A stretch of 39,324 nucleotides of DNA from positions 1-39,324 of IMG/VR virus record IMGVR_UViG_3300030118_005002. The stretch is one strand, 5' to 3'. Positions 1-9,488 of the stretch are shown here, one piece after another (position 1 is the stretch's first letter; each line of letters begins with the position of its first letter). Origin of the DNA: a virus. The position numbers were made by a program, and so were the translations under genes. The notes under the pieces were generated by a model. That model was not told the origin of the DNA and did no database searches. It worked only from the letters and a program-made list of their open reading frames with translations.

Positions 1-1491
1 ACAATTGCACAATCTTTAAATAGACTAACAAATGATGGTCCCGTTCTTAGATTTGTGGGTAACGGTACGACTGCAGGCTCAGTTGGTGTTTTAAGTGGTG
101 GTTTATCTTTTGGTACTGGTGCTTCAATGACTACTCGAATGGAAATTGATAGTGGAGGAGATGTAAAAATAAATACCGGTAGGTTAGGCCTTGGTATGGA
201 TGCTGCACAAGCATTAGATATAGAAAGAACTTCTGGGCTATCTCTTAGATTCTATAATGGTGGTAGTTTTAAAGCAGGATTACAAGCAGTAGATGGATCT
301 GGCCAAATGATTGGAACAAGTGCTGCCAATGATTTTGCAATACGATCTCAATCAAATTTATTATTTTCATCTGGTGGTAATACAGAGCGTATGCGCATCA
401 AGAGCGGCAACGGCCATGTTGGTATAGGCACTACAAATCCAAGATATAATCTAACTGTTGAGGGAAACAATACTACTGCTATTGGTATAGGTGTAGATAA
501 TGTAAGTGGTAGTTCTACATTAGACATTGCAGCTTTAGGAACAGGTTATGCAAATCACCAAGCGGCCGGTGGAGAAGTTTGGTTCTATTCACCAGATAAT
601 ATAAACATTGGTGGAGCAACTGGTAGCACAAACAATATTAAATTTATAGCTAATAACAAAGTAAATATGCTTATTAGAGGAGATGGGACCGGCATCGATA
701 CGAACCAAACTTTTCATGCAATGCCAACTCAATCTAATCTTTCTTCTGGTCAATATGATCAAATTTGGGGACAAGCCGCAAAAGCTCATGGCTCTTTCTT
801 GTCACCTTATATGACTTTGTCTACAAGGTATGGTTCGTGGGATGCAAACGTTGGTTGTAATGCTAGGTCTATGATAGGGCAGCAAAGTGGAGGAACAGAG
901 CAGGCTACAGGTTATGGTGGTGGTGGAGCGAGTAATTTATATGTAGGATTTACTAGCTTAAATTGGTATCATTGGCCTTCCTCAGTTACTAATACAGTAG
1001 GAACTAATTTACCTATAACTAGCACATATCAAATGATGGTATGTGACTCTGGTGGTAACTTTAATATTAATGGTACTTACTACAATAATGCTTCAGACAG
1101 GAGACTGAAAGACAACATAACGCCTATAAGCAGTGCCTTAGATAAAGTTAAGAAATTAACAGGTAATACCTTTACATGGAAAACTGATGACTCTCTACCT
1201 ATACCCGAGCAATTTGTAGGTCAAAAAGACGTAGGAGTAATTGCACAAGAAGTTCAAGAAGTAGTGCCTGAAGCAATAGGACTATCGCCTTGGGATATAG
1301 AATATAAAGAAATTGATAACCCAGACTATAAAGCTGATGCCGAACCGCCTATCCCACAAAAAATACAATCAAAGGACGTATCTTCCGAATCAGGCAATGA
1401 TTATTTAACAGTCAATGAAGAAAAATTAGTTCCTTTATTAATAGAGGCAATAAAAGAATTAGAAGCTCGCGTAGCAGAATTAGAAGTATAA
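1..1491 (+). CDS. Tail fibre protein with C-terminal peptidase S74 (intramolecular chaperone) domain, 5' partial
   Basis: The frame is open from base 1, so the gene begins upstream of the window; the first in-window start-like codon (GTG at 55) is internal. The body is Gly/Asn/Ser/Thr-rich beta-type sequence typical of marine phage fibres and contains a VGIGTTNP-type repeat near 421-441. The last ~130 residues are a peptidase S74 domain: the SDRRLKDNI motif starts at base 1093, followed by DVGVIAQEVQEVVPEAI and a C-terminal heptad-like helix ending EARVAELEV. In endosialidase-type fibres this domain trimerises the fibre and then cleaves itself off at the conserved Ser of the SDxRLK motif, so the mature fibre probably ends near base 1092. 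The chaperone assignment is strong. Receptor specificity cannot be read from the sequence. The stop codon lies inside a late-promoter box for the next gene. Confidence 0.88.
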   Translation, partial: TIAQSLNRLTNDGPVLRFVGNGTTAGSVGVLSGGLSFGTGASMTTRMEIDSGGDVKINTGRLGLGMDAAQALDIERTSGLSLRFYNGGSFKAGLQAVDGSGQMIGTSAANDFAIRSQSNLLFSSGGNTERMRIKSGNGHVGIGTTNPRYNLTVEGNNTTAIGIGVDNVSGSSTLDIAALGTGYANHQAAGGEVWFYSPDNINIGGATGSTNNIKFIANNKVNMLIRGDGTGIDTNQTFHAMPTQSNLSSGQYDQIWGQAAKAHGSFLSPYMTLSTRYGSWDANVGCNARSMIGQQSGGTEQATGYGGGGASNLYVGFTSLNWYHWPSSVTNTVGTNLPITSTYQMMVCDSGGNFNINGTYYNNASDRRLKDNITPISSALDKVKKLTGNTFTWKTDDSLPIPEQFVGQKDVGVIAQEVQEVVPEAIGLSPWDIEYKEIDNPDYKADAEPPIPQKIQSKDVSSESGNDYLTVNEEKLVPLLIEAIKELEARVAELEV

Positions 1492-1494
1492 ATA
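1487..1494 (+). promoter_or_regulatory. T4-type late promoter box TATAAATA
   Basis: Exact match to the T4 late -10 box read by the gp55 sigma factor. It overlaps the stop codon of the preceding fibre gene. The box-to-ATG distance is 39 bases, leaving a leader of about 26 bases with a GGAG Shine-Dalgarno before the ATG at 1526. Confidence 0.75.
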
Positions 1495-1525
1495 GTATAA
1501 TAAACCTTGGAGAGTGAAAAGGTAA

Positions 1526-3760
1526 ATGGCAACACAACACAATTTTAGAGTAAAAAATGGTTTGGAAGTCGCTGGTGTACAGCGCATTTCTTCTACGGGT
1601 GTTATAACTGGTACTCTGGATTCTAATACAACAGCAACAACACAATCTGCTTTAGACAACTCTACTAAAATAGCAACAACAGCTTATACAGATGCTGCAA
1701 TTACTGCTGTCATTGGTGGAGCTCCAGGTACACTAGATACTCTTAACGAATTAGCAGCAGCCATTAATGATGATGATTCATATGCAACAACTCTTACTAC
1801 TGCATTAGCAGGTAAGATGGCAATAGCAGGTGGAACATTTACTGGTAATGTTAATCTAACAAAAGAAACTCCTTACCTTAATCTTACAGATTCATCGGCT
1901 AGTAGAACATTAGGTGTTTTTGTTGATGACAATAATTCAGTTCTTAGATCTAGTGGTCCATTGCTTTTACAAGTTGGTACCTCATCAGCAATTACAATTG
2001 ATAGTAGTAGAAGAGTTGGAATAAATCAAGTTCCTGGAGCAAATAATTTTGCTTTACAAGTTCAAGGAGTGCAAACAGACGGTTCAGATGCTAGATCAGT
2101 TAAGATTAAGGGGTTTGGATCACAAACTAGTATTGGAAGTACTGGTCCAACATTAGTTATACAGAATGCTAATACTACAGCAAATAATTATGCTAAATTA
2201 AGTTTTGAATCAGGTAGTGCCGGAGAAACTGTTTCTATTAATGCACAGAATATAGACCATACAAATCATTATGGTGATATGGCATTTAATACTAGAGGTT
2301 CCAGTGGATACTATGAAAAGATGCGTATTACTTCAAATGGTATAATTGATATTAATAAAGCAGGTAGCTTTTCTTCTTATCCAACAGGCTCTCAGTTAAA
2401 TGTATATGCAAATGGAGAAGGAATTAGATTAGACGGATCCGGTGCCACATCAAGAAATATTAGATTTAGAAATGTTAGTGATGCCAATCCGGGTGTTATT
2501 ATAGCTGATGGTAGTTTAAAATTAGAAACAGAAGATGCAAATACAGATATACGATTAAGTGCTGTACGAGACATAGAGTATCAAGTAACTTCAGGAAATA
2601 GTACAGCAGGTTTCCATTATTTTAAATCATATAATACTTACATAATGGCAATTGATGGAGGAAATAATCGAGTTGGTATTAATACAACACTTCCATCATC
2701 TGAACTACATGTTAATAAAGCAAACGCTGATTCTAAAATACTAATTCAGTCAACTGGTGCAGGCAATGATGCAAAATTATCATTTTTAACGCATCAAAAT
2801 GGTCGAACAATGTATGTTGATGACAGTGATGGTAATAAGCTTCATGTTGCTACTGGATATGGAGAAGCGAATGTTCGCGATACTGTTTTTGATAATGAAG
2901 GTAGAGTTGGTATTCGACAAACTGATATTGCTGATACATTACATGTCAGTTCAGTTGATGATGCTCAACATTTAAGATTTAGAGCAGAAAATGGACAAAT
3001 TCCAAGAATAGCATCCTTTTCAGGAACATCTGCGGGTGGTGCTCAACAAATGGATATATCTGCAAGTAGAGTTAGATTTGAAACAGGAAGTACTTATGGC
3101 GGTAAATCAGTTATAGATGGTAAAGGTAGATTTACTGGTAGAGTCATGGACATGGTTAATGTTGGTTCTGATGATTGGAGTGACAGTTGCTATTACAACG
3201 ATCCGGCCGGTGGAGGTATATTTGGATATGGAACAGGCGGATCTTTAGGTGGATATTCTGTAAATGCTCAGAGTGGGCAAGCTGCATATTGGTATGCTGG
3301 ATTATCTTTTTCAGGATATGTTACTTGGATTCCTCCCGTTTATATGCCATATTCAATTGGACAAGTTTATGGATTAAGCTGTACTTTATGGTGTCATCAT
3401 GCAAATACTGCTGGTACCGCAGTTCAATATGTTGGATGTATTGGATATGATTCTAATTTTAACTTTATGAATCATGACGCAATAGGAACATATCAATATA
3501 ATTTAGCTTCTTCTGCATCATATGCTGCACAAACTAGATATCACATGGATGTAACACTAAAAGGATGGAATGATAATGGACAGTCTGATGGAAACAAAAT
3601 GGATAGAGGAACGGTTTATATAAGACCAATGATGTTAATTAATTATCCTTGGAGTAGTTCTTCTGGAGGCACAACTCCATTGGTTGTAATGGAATCTTTC
3701 ACTATGGGTCCAAAACATACAATATCAGATAATGATTCAAACTCGGGAACAAATTACTAA
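1526..3760 (+). CDS. Tail fibre protein
   Basis: 744-residue fibre-like protein. The N-terminal ~100 residues (MATQHNFRVKNGLEVAG, then APGTLDTLNELAAAINDD and a GKMAIAGGTFTGNV stretch) form the tail-fibre N-terminal module common in marine T4-like phages, presumably the attachment end. The middle carries VGIN/VGIR repeats followed by a P/D-x3-LHV turn (about 2014, 2674 and 2908), the same repeat type as in the neighbouring fibre genes. The C-terminal ~200 residues are rich in Tyr, Trp and Gly (from MVNVGSDDWSD onward) and are probably a receptor-binding head. No S74 chaperone is present, unlike the gene upstream. A GGAG/AAGG ribosome site precedes the ATG. The stop overlaps the next ATG as TAATG. 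Exact fibre position in the virion is unknown. Confidence 0.75.
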   Translation: MATQHNFRVKNGLEVAGVQRISSTGVITGTLDSNTTATTQSALDNSTKIATTAYTDAAITAVIGGAPGTLDTLNELAAAINDDDSYATTLTTALAGKMAIAGGTFTGNVNLTKETPYLNLTDSSASRTLGVFVDDNNSVLRSSGPLLLQVGTSSAITIDSSRRVGINQVPGANNFALQVQGVQTDGSDARSVKIKGFGSQTSIGSTGPTLVIQNANTTANNYAKLSFESGSAGETVSINAQNIDHTNHYGDMAFNTRGSSGYYEKMRITSNGIIDINKAGSFSSYPTGSQLNVYANGEGIRLDGSGATSRNIRFRNVSDANPGVIIADGSLKLETEDANTDIRLSAVRDIEYQVTSGNSTAGFHYFKSYNTYIMAIDGGNNRVGINTTLPSSELHVNKANADSKILIQSTGAGNDAKLSFLTHQNGRTMYVDDSDGNKLHVATGYGEANVRDTVFDNEGRVGIRQTDIADTLHVSSVDDAQHLRFRAENGQIPRIASFSGTSAGGAQQMDISASRVRFETGSTYGGKSVIDGKGRFTGRVMDMVNVGSDDWSDSCYYNDPAGGGIFGYGTGGSLGGYSVNAQSGQAAYWYAGLSFSGYVTWIPPVYMPYSIGQVYGLSCTLWCHHANTAGTAVQYVGCIGYDSNFNFMNHDAIGTYQYNLASSASYAAQTRYHMDVTLKGWNDNGQSDGNKMDRGTVYIRPMMLINYPWSSSSGGTTPLVVMESFTMGPKHTISDNDSNSGTNY

Positions 3761-4161
3761 TGGCTACACAACAACAAATAACATTTGAATGGAAAATACC
3801 AGAAATAATATGGAATGAAAATGGTGTAATCCAAGAAGTAAAATGGGAATACCATGGAACAAAAGGTACATATACAACTAAATTATTTGGTCGACATTTT
3901 ATAACTGGTGATCATACAAAGGAAGGTTTTATTTCACAGCCTGATGTTGTAAAAGACGATGTTATTCAATGGATAGAAAATGATTTTAGTAGACAAATAG
4001 AATTTGACGATGATATAAGAGCAATGATTGCTGGACCAGATCAAACTATAGAAGATATACCGGACCCAGAGCCAAGATTAGTTCAAATGAAAAGAGAAAT
4101 TACAGGAACAATTACTGCACAAGAAGAAGCTCCTTTAAGAGAAAGTAGGAGTTTAGAATAA
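3760..4161 (+). CDS. Hypothetical protein in tail-fibre cluster
   Basis: 133 residues starting on an ATG that shares one base with the preceding fibre stop (TAATG), so translation is likely coupled. The N-terminal half alternates hydrophobic and charged residues with several Trp and Tyr (EWKIPEIIWNENGVIQEVKW), suggesting a small beta domain. A DVVKDDVIQWIENDF helix follows, and the tail is charged and Pro/Glu-rich. There is no signal peptide or membrane segment. Its place between two long fibre genes and its size suggest a fibre accessory, hinge or assembly factor, but that is inference from position. I do not recognise a characterised family. Confidence 0.7.
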   Translation: MATQQQITFEWKIPEIIWNENGVIQEVKWEYHGTKGTYTTKLFGRHFITGDHTKEGFISQPDVVKDDVIQWIENDFSRQIEFDDDIRAMIAGPDQTIEDIPDPEPRLVQMKREITGTITAQEEAPLRESRSLE

Positions 4162-4162
4162 T

Positions 4163-6172
4163 ATGTCAAATACAAAACTACCAGCGCGATTATTAGATAC
4201 ATCAGCAGTCCCGGCGTTAAACGTTACTGGGGATTTGACTGTGGACACTACTACATTAAAAGTAGATTCTACTAATAATAGAGTTGGTATAGGAGCTGTA
4301 TCACCAGCTTCTAAACTACATATAAAAAATACTGCTTCTGAAGATACAGCAATTATTTTAGAAAATACTAATAATGCTCAGAATTTAAATATTGATTATT
4401 ATAGTAATGCTGGTTCAGTACAAAGTAGAATAAATTATGCAGAAGGTCCAGCATCTTGGAACTTTATTCCAAATACATCTAATGGTAATAGCGCGTTATA
4501 TATTAATTATTCAGGTAATATTGGTATTGGAGAAACATCTCCATCAGCAAAACTTCATATTAAAAAGGCTGCTGCAACAACTCAACATTATGATTCATAT
4601 GCAACACTCATTGTTGAAGATCCAGAATCACGAATACAAATTGTAGCAACTGATGGAGGAAGCAATGCATCAGCTTTATTACTTACTAATGAAGAAAAGC
4701 ATTGGGGAGTAGTTCATCATGGACCTAGTGAAAATAATACTTTTGGTATTGGATATTATGCAAGTAGCTCGTCCGGTGTTGATATTGCTGATTCACTAAG
4801 TAGTCCTTTCACTATTACTACAGGTGGCTTTGTTGGTATTGGTACAGATAATCCAAGTGCTAGTTTAACTATAGATGGTGATTCGGGTACTCAAGGTAGT
4901 GTTAGAATTGTGCCAGATACTAGCAAAGGAAATCAAGTTTCTCATATTCATTATGGTGGAACAGGTGATTGGTATATTAGATCTGCAGGCACTTCAGGAA
5001 ATGTAGTAATACAGGATAGTGGTGGTAATGTTGGTATTGGTACTGCCACTCCAGGAACAGCAAAGCTTAATGTAACTGCAGGATCGAGTGCTAACACCAC
5101 TATTAAATTTGGTTCGCACTTTGATACCAAGGTACAAATACAAGCTACGGCTACAGCATCTGGAATGCTTCAATTTTTAAACGCCTCTGGCACTTCCAAA
5201 ATAAGTTTGGGATATCGGGACGATGGAACTGGCGGCGATGGTCAATTTAGAATCAGACACGCAGGAACACTAGACACTGCAGGGCCGATGATAAATATGG
5301 CAACGAATGGCGCTGTATCTGTAGTCACAGATACAAGTGCAGCTCCTGTTGGTAATAGTCATGCACAGCTAACTGTTAAAACAACAACAAACGCAAATCC
5401 TGCTTATGCGGTATTAGCCTTTGATTCAGGGGTCGGTAGGCTCGGAGTCATAGAAGGGCAACAAAGAGCGGGAGGATCAGCTGGTTATGGACATATATCA
5501 ACAATAGTAAATAATGGCCAATCAGGCTCTGGTGCTATGGTAAGAGCAATTACCGCTAATTACACTGGTAAGGTTGGTGTAGGTAAGGGCCATAGCATTA
5601 CACCAGATATGAATTTAGAAGTTTATGCATATAATGAAACTTCTCAATGGACAAGTTCCGGATCATATCATGGTGGTACACAAGCATTTGGAATTTTATC
5701 AAATTCTCCTCCAGCACCCGTAGCAGGTGATTATGGTTATTTCAAAGATTTTTGGTATTATATGGTTGGTAACACAAGTCATACAATGGTGTGGGATAAT
5801 GCAGATAGTTATTTTAATGCTGAAGTTATGCTAGTTGCAGCATGTACCAATGGTGGTGCTCATAATAATATTTTCTGTAGAGGTTTTTGGAGTAATAATC
5901 ATACTTCTCATAGATTTGATGGTATTGAAGGTTTTAGAACAGCTTCAAGTACAAGTAGTTTCGAAACAACACAAAACTCCGCTGGAGCTGGAGGTATTGG
6001 TGGATTAACTAATGGTGACTATTTTACTTTTACTGCTTCACAAGGGACAAATGCATCTAATAGTGGAAAATTAACAATTGTTCATTCGTATCCGGGTGCA
6101 TCATTTTATGGTGCTAAAATAAGATTGAGAGTTTTCTTTGGACAATTTAATGGACATAGTAGTACATCATAG
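4163..6172 (+). CDS. Tail fibre protein with VGIG-type repeats
   Basis: 669 residues. It opens with a short attachment-like segment (MSNTKLPARLLDTSAVPALN) and then carries at least four copies of a VGIG-x3-SP-x3-KLHI type repeat, near 4285, 4522, 4834 and 5032. Between repeats are Gly/Ser/Asn-rich beta stretches. The C-terminal third (after KVGVGKGHSITPDMNLEVYA) is a distinct Trp/Tyr/His-rich region, probably the receptor-binding tip. The repeat marks beta-structured shafts of marine phage fibres, and C-terminal S74 chaperones often follow it, but none is present here. The gene starts 1 base after the previous stop. Paralogy with the two other fibres in the window is clear from the repeat, while the tips look unrelated. 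Confidence 0.75.
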   Translation: MSNTKLPARLLDTSAVPALNVTGDLTVDTTTLKVDSTNNRVGIGAVSPASKLHIKNTASEDTAIILENTNNAQNLNIDYYSNAGSVQSRINYAEGPASWNFIPNTSNGNSALYINYSGNIGIGETSPSAKLHIKKAAATTQHYDSYATLIVEDPESRIQIVATDGGSNASALLLTNEEKHWGVVHHGPSENNTFGIGYYASSSSGVDIADSLSSPFTITTGGFVGIGTDNPSASLTIDGDSGTQGSVRIVPDTSKGNQVSHIHYGGTGDWYIRSAGTSGNVVIQDSGGNVGIGTATPGTAKLNVTAGSSANTTIKFGSHFDTKVQIQATATASGMLQFLNASGTSKISLGYRDDGTGGDGQFRIRHAGTLDTAGPMINMATNGAVSVVTDTSAAPVGNSHAQLTVKTTTNANPAYAVLAFDSGVGRLGVIEGQQRAGGSAGYGHISTIVNNGQSGSGAMVRAITANYTGKVGVGKGHSITPDMNLEVYAYNETSQWTSSGSYHGGTQAFGILSNSPPAPVAGDYGYFKDFWYYMVGNTSHTMVWDNADSYFNAEVMLVAACTNGGAHNNIFCRGFWSNNHTSHRFDGIEGFRTASSTSSFETTQNSAGAGGIGGLTNGDYFTFTASQGTNASNSGKLTIVHSYPGASFYGAKIRLRVFFGQFNGHSSTS

Positions 6173-6180
6173 GAGATATA

Positions 6181-6396
6181 ATGGCAATTAAAAAAACAAC
6201 CGCACATGAAATAATTGATTCGCAAGAAAATGTATGGCCTCCAGCAATGATACAAAATGGCGAATGGGTAAATCAAAATATTGATAATTTACCCGATGAA
6301 GTTAAAACCGAAGCAGAAACATTATGGACGGAAAGTAATATAAATCACTTTAAATCAGTAATGGAAGCTGGTGAAGAAGGAACTATAATAGAATAA
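6181..6396 (+). CDS. Small hypothetical protein after fibre gene
   Basis: 71 residues, acidic and mostly helical in character, with no membrane segment or cysteine. An AGGAGAT Shine-Dalgarno lies 5-10 bases before the ATG. It sits between the last fibre gene and the late promoter of gp13, so it is probably the last cistron of the fibre transcript. The sequence (WPPAMIQNGEWVNQNIDNLP) matches no family I can name. A structural or assembly role is possible from position only. Confidence 0.6.
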   Translation: MAIKKTTAHEIIDSQENVWPPAMIQNGEWVNQNIDNLPDEVKTEAETLWTESNINHFKSVMEAGEEGTIIE

Positions 6397-6404
6397 ATAT
6401 AATG

Positions 6405-6412
6405 TATAAATA
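6405..6412 (+). promoter_or_regulatory. T4-type late promoter box, predicted leaderless
   Basis: Exact TATAAATA. The first T lies 13 bases before the A of the gp13 ATG at 6418. In T4 the box spans about -13 to -6, so the transcript would begin on the ATG itself. No Shine-Dalgarno sequence is visible in the AT-only stretch upstream. Confidence 0.7.
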
Positions 6413-6417
6413 GTATT

Positions 6418-7524
6418 ATGGCAAAACCAAATAGCAGATCAACATTAATTCAATATTGCAAAAGGGCTCTAGGGCATCCTGTAATAGAAATAAATGTGGA
6501 TGATGACCAGGTAGATGATAGAGTAGATGAGGCTTTACAGTTTTATCAAGAGTATCATGCTGATGCCGTAGAAAAAGTTTATTTAAAGCACTTAGTTACT
6601 AAAACAGATCAAGCTAATGGTTATATAACAATACCAGATTTAGTTACAAATGTTGTGCGACTAATGCCGCTTCAAGAATCTAATTTATCAAATAATATGT
6701 TTGATATTAAATATCAAGTTATGTTAAATGACATGCATAGCTTAGGTTTCATGGGTCAAATGTATGATTTTAAAATGAAGATGAATCATCTAGCTATGTT
6801 GGATATGATACTAGATGCAGATGAAAAACATGTAGATTTTAATAGACATCAAAATAGATTACATGTACACATGGATTGGGATGTCGATACTGATACACCA
6901 GCAGACGAAACTATAACAGTAAAAGTAATAGCTACAGGCGCTGGAAATAAATATACAGTTAATGGCGTTGAAACCGGAAGCTTAGCTTTATCCATTGGTG
7001 GAACATATACATTCGATCAATCAGATGCTTCTAATAATGGTCATCCATTTAGATTTAGTATTACAGAAAATGGAACACATGCAAGTGGTACTGAGTATAC
7101 CACAGGTGTGACAACTAATGGAACACCCGGACAAGCCGGAGCATATACTAGAATTGTTGTAACAGAATCAACTCCTACATTATATTACTATTGTGCTAAT
7201 CATAGTGCAATGGGTGGAAATGCCAAACTTACACCAGAATTAACTCCTGGTAAATTTACTTATTTAGTTATTGAATGTTATCGTATAGTAGATCCAGATA
7301 CATTTACTGATGTATATAATGATTACTATTTAAAACGTTATGCAACTGCTTTAATAAAACACCAATGGGGTATTAACTTATTAAAATTCGAAGGTATGCA
7401 AATGCCAGGTGGTGTTACCTTTAATGGCCGACAAATCTTCGACGATGCAAGAGAAGAAATCGAAAAGCTTACTGAAGAAGCTAGGCTTAATTGGGAAGAA
7501 CCTATCGATTTTTATACGGGATAG
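6418..7524 (+). CDS. 13: Neck protein gp13 with inserted cupredoxin-like domain
   Basis: 368 residues against about 309 in T4. The N-terminal part (NSRSTLIQYCKRALGHPVIE, VDDRVDEALQFYQEYH) and the C-terminal part (YLKRYATALIKHQWGINLLK, GVTFNGRQIFDDAREEIEKL) are characteristic of gp13, which with gp14 forms the neck that closes the filled head and joins it to the tail. Residues ~165-272 are an insertion: a beta-rich module with TYTFDQSDASNNGHPFRFS and a terminal LYYYCANHSAMGG. His209, Cys259, His262 and Met265 are in the order of type-1 copper ligands in plastocyanin-like folds. Whether metal is bound is inference, since such domains on phage virions may be purely structural. The start is fixed by family similarity although no ribosome site precedes it. 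Confidence 0.9.
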   Translation: MAKPNSRSTLIQYCKRALGHPVIEINVDDDQVDDRVDEALQFYQEYHADAVEKVYLKHLVTKTDQANGYITIPDLVTNVVRLMPLQESNLSNNMFDIKYQVMLNDMHSLGFMGQMYDFKMKMNHLAMLDMILDADEKHVDFNRHQNRLHVHMDWDVDTDTPADETITVKVIATGAGNKYTVNGVETGSLALSIGGTYTFDQSDASNNGHPFRFSITENGTHASGTEYTTGVTTNGTPGQAGAYTRIVVTESTPTLYYYCANHSAMGGNAKLTPELTPGKFTYLVIECYRIVDPDTFTDVYNDYYLKRYATALIKHQWGINLLKFEGMQMPGGVTFNGRQIFDDAREEIEKLTEEARLNWEEPIDFYTG

Positions 7525-7527
7525 ATT

Positions 7528-8463
7528 ATGCCTAGAAATGTATACTTTTCTCAGGCCGTAAGATCCGAACAAAATCTTTACGAAGATTTAATCATTGAAT
7601 CACTTAAAATATACGGTCAAGATCTTTTTTACTTACCAAGAGAAATAGTAAGTACTGATACTATATTGGGAGAAGATCGTGCATCTAAGTTTGATGATGC
7701 ATTTATGATTGAAGGTTATATTGAAGGTACAGAAGGATTTGAAGGTCAAGGAGATTTATATTCTAAATTTGGTTTAGAAGTAAGAGATGAAGTTAACTTT
7801 GTAATATCTAGAAAAGTATGGGATAGATATATTGGATTTGATGGTGGAGATAGACCAAAAGAAGGTGATCTAATATTTTTACCACTATCCAATAAATTTT
7901 TTGAAGTTATGTTTGTGGAACATGAGCAACCATTCTATCAATTATCTAATTTACCAGTATATAGGTTACAATGTGCTCTATATGAATATAATGATGAAGA
8001 CTTTGATACTGGTGTTGATATTTTAGATCAAATAGAAGTAACTGATTCTTATCAAGTAACTTTAGAATATTCTACAACCGGCAATAATCATTTAGAACAA
8101 GGTGAACTAGTTACACAAAATCTTACCTTTAATGCTGGTGGTGATGTATTAACAAGCGTATTTGGAACAGTACAAGTAGTAGAAAAACTATCAGCCACTG
8201 GTGGTAGAATTCAAGTATCAAATATTGGAGTAACTGGAGTTGCTGAAGCTAGAGACTTTATTGTTTCATCTACTCTTACATTAACTGGAGCTGAATCAGC
8301 TAAAACAGTAACTATAACAAAAGTATACGATATTGGAGATAATAGTCCTTTCGTAGATCCTACTGATAGCCAGGGAGAAAATGTTGCATTTGAAGTTGCA
8401 GCAGACGGATTCCTTGACTTTACAGAGGCTAACCCATTTGGAGATCCATCGGATAATTTCTAA
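7528..8463 (+). CDS. 14: Neck protein gp14
   Basis: 311 residues against about 256 in T4. The N-terminus MPRNVYFSQAVRSEQNLYED, the middle (DRYIGFDGGDRPKEGDLIFL, EHEQPFYQLSNLPVYRLQC) and the C-terminal FLDFTEANPFGDPSD are diagnostic of T4 gp14, the neck protein that forms the collar beneath the portal with gp13. Residues ~180-265 are an extra Gly/Thr/Val-rich beta segment (LEQGELVTQNLTFNAGG, GTVQVVEKLSATGGRIQV) placed between the conserved core and the conserved tail. It resembles the extra module at the end of gp15. It starts 3 bases after gp13 and shares its last base with the first base of gp15 (TAATG). Confidence 0.9.
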   Translation: MPRNVYFSQAVRSEQNLYEDLIIESLKIYGQDLFYLPREIVSTDTILGEDRASKFDDAFMIEGYIEGTEGFEGQGDLYSKFGLEVRDEVNFVISRKVWDRYIGFDGGDRPKEGDLIFLPLSNKFFEVMFVEHEQPFYQLSNLPVYRLQCALYEYNDEDFDTGVDILDQIEVTDSYQVTLEYSTTGNNHLEQGELVTQNLTFNAGGDVLTSVFGTVQVVEKLSATGGRIQVSNIGVTGVAEARDFIVSSTLTLTGAESAKTVTITKVYDIGDNSPFVDPTDSQGENVAFEVAADGFLDFTEANPFGDPSDNF

Positions 8464-9488
8464 TGTTTGGAAGTCATTTTTATCACGCAACAGTTAGAAA
8501 GTCAGTAGCCGTTTTTGGTACACTTTTTAACAATATAACTGTCATACGTAAAGATGGCAGTGGTGGTATATTAAATCAAGTAAAAGTTCCGTTGGCTTAT
8601 GGTCCTAAACAAAAATTTCTTGCAAGATTAAATGAAGATTTAGACAATCAATCATTGGCTTTAAAAATGCCAAGAATGGCTTTTGAAATTACTAGTCTTG
8701 ATATTGATTTAAATCAAAAACAAAATAAAAGAAATAAAATAACAAATGCTAGTACCGATACTTCTAAAAGAGATAAAATAGATTTTCAAGTGCCATATAA
8801 TATTGGTATGGAATTAACCATCATGGCTAAGAACCAAGATGATGGATTACAAATATTAGAACAAATCATACCATTCTTTCAACCAGATTATACAGTATCA
8901 ATTAAACCTATTGATGGATGGACTACATTTACGCAAGATGTTCCCATAGTTTTAAATTCAGTTACGTTTAATGATGATTACGAAGCAGACTTTATAACTC
9001 GTAGAGTACTAACGTATACTCTTGGCTTTACAATGAAAATGACTTTTTATAGTTCTAAAGGGTCACAAGGTGTTATTAAAGAAATTGATATTGATTATAT
9101 TAATCAAGCAAATACTACACAAGAATTTCAAAGTAGTACATATAAAATAGATCCAACCACGGCAGTTGAAAGCGATACTTTAGTAACAGGTACACCAGGA
9201 TCGGGACAATATAGAATTGTTACAACAACTGATTTTATTAATCATCCAGAATCAGGAACAATTAATTTACCAGCATCTATAAGTGGAACATTTAGCGTTG
9301 GTGAAATAGTAACTGGAAGTTCTTCTGGAACAACTTTTAAAATTGGTACATTTACTCCAATAATAGAAGGTGGTAATATTGTTAGAAATACTATTGGATT
9401 TAATAGCGCAAGTGGATATTTGCATCCTGGTGAAACTTTAACTGGTGCCACATCAAATGCTTCAACAACATTAACAAGTTACGTGTAA
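8463..9488 (+). CDS. 15: Tail sheath stabiliser / tail completion protein gp15
   Basis: 341 residues. The core MFGSHFYHATVRKSVAVFG, AYGPKQKFLARLNEDLD and PRMAFEITSLDID matches T4 gp15, the ring that caps the sheath and tube and docks to the head neck. T4 gp15 is about 272 residues. The excess here is a C-terminal extension (residues ~235-341) with two Gly-Glu turns, FSVGEIVTGSSSGTTFKIG and LHPGETLTGATSNASTTL, a beta-repeat style also found in the gp14 insertion. TAATG overlaps link it to both gp14 and gp16, so translation is probably coupled. Confidence 0.9.
   Translation: MFGSHFYHATVRKSVAVFGTLFNNITVIRKDGSGGILNQVKVPLAYGPKQKFLARLNEDLDNQSLALKMPRMAFEITSLDIDLNQKQNKRNKITNASTDTSKRDKIDFQVPYNIGMELTIMAKNQDDGLQILEQIIPFFQPDYTVSIKPIDGWTTFTQDVPIVLNSVTFNDDYEADFITRRVLTYTLGFTMKMTFYSSKGSQGVIKEIDIDYINQANTTQEFQSSTYKIDPTTAVESDTLVTGTPGSGQYRIVTTTDFINHPESGTINLPASISGTFSVGEIVTGSSSGTTFKIGTFTPIIEGGNIVRNTIGFNSASGYLHPGETLTGATSNASTTLTSYV

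Follow-up and report, generated by a model that had tools for sequence, protein, structure and literature searches.

Phage structural proteins carry Ig-like decoration domains, i.e. mobile beta-sandwiches that numerous virion proteins have inserted at their surface loops. In the neck of bacteriophage T4, gp13 forms a dodecamer and its domain III (residues 190-239) binds fibritin (PMC12270204). Metal on the virion has so far been discussed for iron, HxH iron-binding tail fibres having been described for T4 gp37 and for the alterophage R22Y (PMC11705849). The cupredoxins (PF00127, with amicyanin, pseudoazurin and plastocyanin, besides rusticyanin and AcoP) are, for their part, soluble electron carriers.

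The stretch of DNA analysed here (39,324 nucleotides, i.e. positions 1 to 39,324 of the IMG/VR record IMGVR_UViG_3300030118_005002; hereafter, the window) belongs to an uncultivated marine T4-like virus, which is known from metagenome contigs alone. It encodes a gp13-type neck protein with an inserted domain (table 1) that resembles cupredoxins in its predicted fold, in a His...Cys-x2-His-x2-Met set aligned with their ligands and in a loop of amicyanin-type length, but differs from them in falling below the sequence thresholds of the family, in the proline that follows the first histidine, and in that the predicted site would lie in a domain inserted into a structural component of the virion, theirs belonging to soluble electron carriers. 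The carrier belongs to the same family as T4 gp13 (PDB 9mkb, 9lu4-9lu7) by profile and fold; however, where T4 has the fibritin-binding domain III at the junction (PMC12270204), the window protein has the cupredoxin-like module. With the Ig-like decoration domains, the module shares the character of a mobile surface beta-sandwich, while its cupredoxin-like fold and metal-ligand set distinguish it. As with the HxH fibres, a metal site is proposed for it on the virions of marine phages (PMC11705849), but in the fibres iron is held on trimers through HxH, whereas in the module a type-1-copper-like site is predicted inside a folded domain. The reading that we favour, with a probability of about two in three, is that of a cupredoxin module with type-1-copper-like ligands, which faces outward on the neck, binds copper and serves in decoration or adhesion.

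Table 1. Features of the neck region of the window and of the inserted domain (residue numbers refer to the gp13-type protein).
Feature	Position	Strand	Basis
gp13-type neck protein (head-tail adaptor Ad2), 368 aa	6418..7524	+	ORF; PHROG 211; profile and fold match to T4 gp13 (9mkb, 9lu4)
Inserted cupredoxin-like domain, about residues 161-275, ~115 residues	6898..7242	+	missing from relatives of 246-252 aa; AF2; Foldseek
His209, predicted N-terminal metal ligand (GHPF motif)	7042..7044	+	aligned with the Copper-bind ligand His; conservation
Cys259, predicted thiolate ligand	7192..7194	+	HHalign alignment; conservation
His262, predicted second His ligand	7201..7203	+	HHalign alignment; conservation
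Met265, predicted axial ligand	7210..7212	+	HHalign alignment; conservation
gp14-type head closure protein (Hc2), without cupredoxin module	7528..8463	+	PHROG 460/679
gp15-type tail sheath stabilizer, without cupredoxin module	8463..9488	+	PHROG 227

The assignment of the carrier is based on both sequence and fold: the protein matches PHROG 211 ('head-tail adaptor Ad2') with an E-value of 1.4e-36 and the T4 gp13 profile with one of 7.5e-25, and a model of the whole protein, obtained from a separate alignment, retrieves T4 gp13 (2e-10) and then rusticyanin (4.3e-3) in the fold search. The genes of the window follow the T4-like order gp13-gp14-gp15-terS-terL-sheath-tube-portal, which is identical, from neck to portal, in phage C48C1, the nearest isolate by terminase (69%), the gp13 of which lacks the insert. 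Just upstream of gp13 (5818-6410), the DNA identity with the closest relatives falls from about 87-90% to about 40%, a variable fibre-like region thus adjoining the neck gene.

Most of the gp13 relatives (140 distinct proteins were collected) consist of 246-252 residues and lack the insert; in the alignment, their conserved parts join directly across its position, which corresponds to a short turn between MDW... and ...LVxECYRI. The insert between conserved gp13 parts that had been noticed in a preliminary description of this DNA is therefore real, but the extent given there (about 108 residues, 6910-7233) was slightly too small. The 20 insert-bearing forms make up one clade (support 0.986), and the cupredoxin-like module entered gp13 once. 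Among the phage isolates examined, no gp13 with a cupredoxin-like insert was seen; isolate S-8S56, with a gp13 of 373 aa, was considered and discarded, its extra part being located elsewhere, around residue 63. This is a second insertion point of gp13: another lineage, of 321-325 aa (L141-L149, L151, L155-L159, L381), has there a different insert of about 75 aa with TGGTSGA repeats, and that of S-8S56 is larger.

By alignment with T4 gp13, the cupredoxin-like insert falls at the junction between domains II and III. The module would thus have been spliced into a beta-hairpin of gp13, next to the region that binds fibritin in T4, a position that probably makes it a decoration on the outer rim of the neck ring; with 12 gp13 subunits as in T4, up to 12 copies would be displayed outside the ring, facing outward. 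The same junction, together with the fibre-like genes that lie directly upstream of gp13 (55-6172), could also be read to mean that the domain replaces the fibritin-binding domain III of T4 and that neck fibres, or the variable fibre-like products of the upstream genes, dock on it. Most marine gp13 relatives, however, have nothing at the insertion site, and docking is compatible with decoration or adhesion rather than exclusive of it; taken as the explanation, we regard it as rather improbable.

The fold of the domain was predicted with AlphaFold2 from an alignment with 47 homologues, which yielded an all-beta model (pLDDT 89.9, pTM 0.84) of the type of the cupredoxin Greek-key beta-sandwich. 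The preliminary description had proposed a comparison of the predicted structure with plastocyanin-type folds, and it is cupredoxins that dominate the Foldseek search of the PDB: all nine matches with E-values of 0.001 or below are cupredoxins, with a probability of 1.00, including AcoP (2.2e-4), a pseudoazurin with an engineered amicyanin loop (6.1e-4) and rusticyanin, and nearly all of the best matches are blue copper proteins (AcoP, pseudoazurin, rusticyanin, plastocyanin). The TM-scores of these matches are moderate (about 0.5-0.6, with rmsd values of 4-8 A). The model thus supports the view of the insert as a cupredoxin-fold domain, and the earlier reading appears largely right.

At the level of sequence, the relation is more distant. 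The window protein reached no family of Pfam or NCBIfam, remaining below the gathering cut-off of PF00127, and a single-sequence search of the PDB sequences with the window domain gave no match; the profile of the family, instead, places blue copper proteins first among PDB sequences, but weakly (E 0.065 and up). Members of the family match Copper-bind, sulfocyanin, plastocyanin and rusticyanin weakly, with six of 47 relatives hitting Pfam PF00127 (Copper-bind) at a best E-value of 0.0057. When profiles are compared with HHalign, using a Copper-bind profile derived from bacterial genomes, the probability rises to 80-94% (E 1.6e-6 to 1.8e-7), as opposed to 2.2% at most for column-shuffled controls, and each of the four ligands falls on its counterpart. 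Masking of the four ligand columns brings the probability to 6.3% and the score to 18.2, which compares with a maximum of 15.4 for shuffled and with 19.2 for reversed profiles. Since the masked comparison falls near the reversed control, the sequence link with known cupredoxins is carried mostly by the ligands. This near-background value and the moderate TM-scores would fit an unrelated beta-sandwich, Ig-like or lectin, that had acquired a similar motif by convergence; yet it is cupredoxins, and not the much more numerous Ig structures, that dominate the fold search, and we regard convergence as very improbable.

The four residues of the predicted site are those that had been singled out at first, in plastocyanin-type order, and they align with the ligands of type-1 copper: an N-terminal histidine followed by a C-terminal Cys-His-Met loop. 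The spacing of the latter, Cys-x2-His-x2-Met, is that of amicyanin. It had been taken for a departure from the usual x4 spacing, but it is found exactly in 15 of 75 ordinary Copper-bind domains from bacterial genomes, so that it lies within the range of known members and is no anomaly. What does differ is the residue that follows the first histidine, which is proline in 113 of 121 members, the window included, in place of the asparagine, threonine or serine usual in Copper-bind; the latter feature is common rather than universal, and variable even within Copper-bind.

Of 124 distinct copies of the domain from viral contigs and marine genome contigs, 118 have the complete set (HCHM), a proportion that is biased upward by the part of the viral sample gathered with ligand-containing patterns; the marine genome-contig sample was gathered with ligand-free patterns, and its members are still mostly HCHM. 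The conservation across homologous domains indicates that the residue set is not due to chance. One of the six remaining copies is truncated, one is HCHH and four lack the cysteine, and in all four the second histidine is gone as well, neither residue ever being lost singly. Among the gp13 inserts, the four ligands are complete in 18 of 20; in the other two, which belong to separate branches (L092 and L095), cysteine, histidine and methionine have been lost together in each. The covariation that the preliminary description had suggested examining is therefore observed, the residues being kept together and the cysteine and second histidine (with the methionine in gp13 inserts) being lost together, and the free loss of Cys or His from homologous inserts, which was to count against the proposal, is not seen. 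A gp15-borne copy (L155:3033-4373) reads HCHH, a histidine replacing the axial methionine.

The two gp13 inserts devoid of the site keep the other conserved motifs, so that the domain can persist without its predicted metal site. They fit the possibility of a cupredoxin-fold decoration in which the Cys/His/Met cluster is structural only, or binds zinc or another ion incidentally, with no functional copper, as does the occurrence of the module among decoration and adhesion domains in fibres and large surface-type proteins. However, a structural role could do without the precise arrangement of a type-1 copper site, with its cysteine and axial methionine, and the four residues are widely kept as a set and lost as a group. 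We therefore consider such an account unlikely, if still to be weighed: the strict ligand set argues for a bound metal, most likely copper, and each domain would most likely bind one copper ion.

The insert is not specific to gp13, as might have been thought, the same domain being found in gp14, gp15, baseplate-wedge and tail-fibre proteins. In one virus, the module is borne by gp14 (L107:4751-6022), and in others by the C-terminal part of gp15 (L145:2158-3456, L152:3368-4459, L156:1958-3103 and L159:4274-5479), the gp13 of these viruses being without it. It is present in 194 phage records, mainly of Synechococcus and Prochlorococcus viruses, with some of Pelagibacter and Methylophilales viruses, in proteins named tail fibre, baseplate wedge or virion structural protein; Melnitz, Mosig and S-TIM5 are isolates in which a protein other than gp13 bears it. 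PHROG families 30742, 27200, 693, 677, 708 and 6005 (tail fibre, baseplate wedge, connector) contain the same domain, about 25-65% identical, in carriers other than gp13, and it is not named a copper domain in the annotations seen. Contigs of marine metagenome-assembled genomes (MAGs) and single cells (L161-L192), of bacteria and archaea such as Flavobacteriaceae, Prochlorococcus, MGII and SAR86, carry homologues as well. The proteins concerned reach about 2,000 aa, and Ig-like, lectin or RTX domains accompany the module in some of them; a part of these contigs may, however, be of viral origin. The open-licence literature yielded no relevant paper on a cupredoxin in a phage, virion, cyanophage or tail fibre.

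Carriers of the fibre, baseplate, neck and cell-surface type argue for decoration, adhesion or docking. The presence of the module in many marine-phage tail fibres, combined with a complete type-1 ligand set, would also fit a copper-loaded redox or metal-delivery module, by which the virion would bring copper to the host surface, take it from there, or pass electrons. Such a module would do with copper what the 'Ferrojan/Trojan Horse' proposal for tail fibres assumes for iron, in which iron-binding HxH fibres are proposed to act as bait for host receptors in marine phages (PMC11705849). On the other hand, gp13 is located on the neck, a long way from the tips that bind the receptor, and neither a redox partner nor a copper gene was identified. 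With no partner evident, electron transfer is less likely, and we hold this alternative to be quite improbable. Rather than carrying electrons, the domain most likely holds a metal and serves at the surface or in adhesion, i.e. as a metal-stabilised module that would act in decoration or adhesion as the Ig-like domains of other phages do. A broader proposition is that type-1 copper centres are borne by the virions of marine T4-like phages, in a ring of up to 12 around the neck and also on the baseplate and the fibres, and that the copper held there is required for stability or host contact; it is put forward tentatively, as less likely than not.

A likely identity is thus offered for a recurrent unnamed module of several PHROG families and of proteins from marine MAGs and single cells. 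If the ligand set holds copper, some virus particles may bear copper on their surface, and the module would add this metal to the questions that link virus-host interactions and trace metals. At about 12 kDa, it is a small domain on which the copper question can be tested.

The module also appears to move between carriers. The gp13 core of the window is 91% and 90% identical to those of two relatives (L082 and L088, respectively), whereas its insert shares no more than 65% and 59% identity with their inserts, which are 82% identical to each other, and in the domain tree the window insert is nearer to a fibre copy; judged from these sequences, the module of the window seems to have been exchanged relative to the two relatives. 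As a separate observation, in the Pelagibacter phage Mosig the region just upstream of the neck genes (L403:880-5965) has four 2OG-Fe(II) oxygenases, a ferrochelatase, a heme oxygenase and a phycocyanobilin:ferredoxin oxidoreductase annotated.
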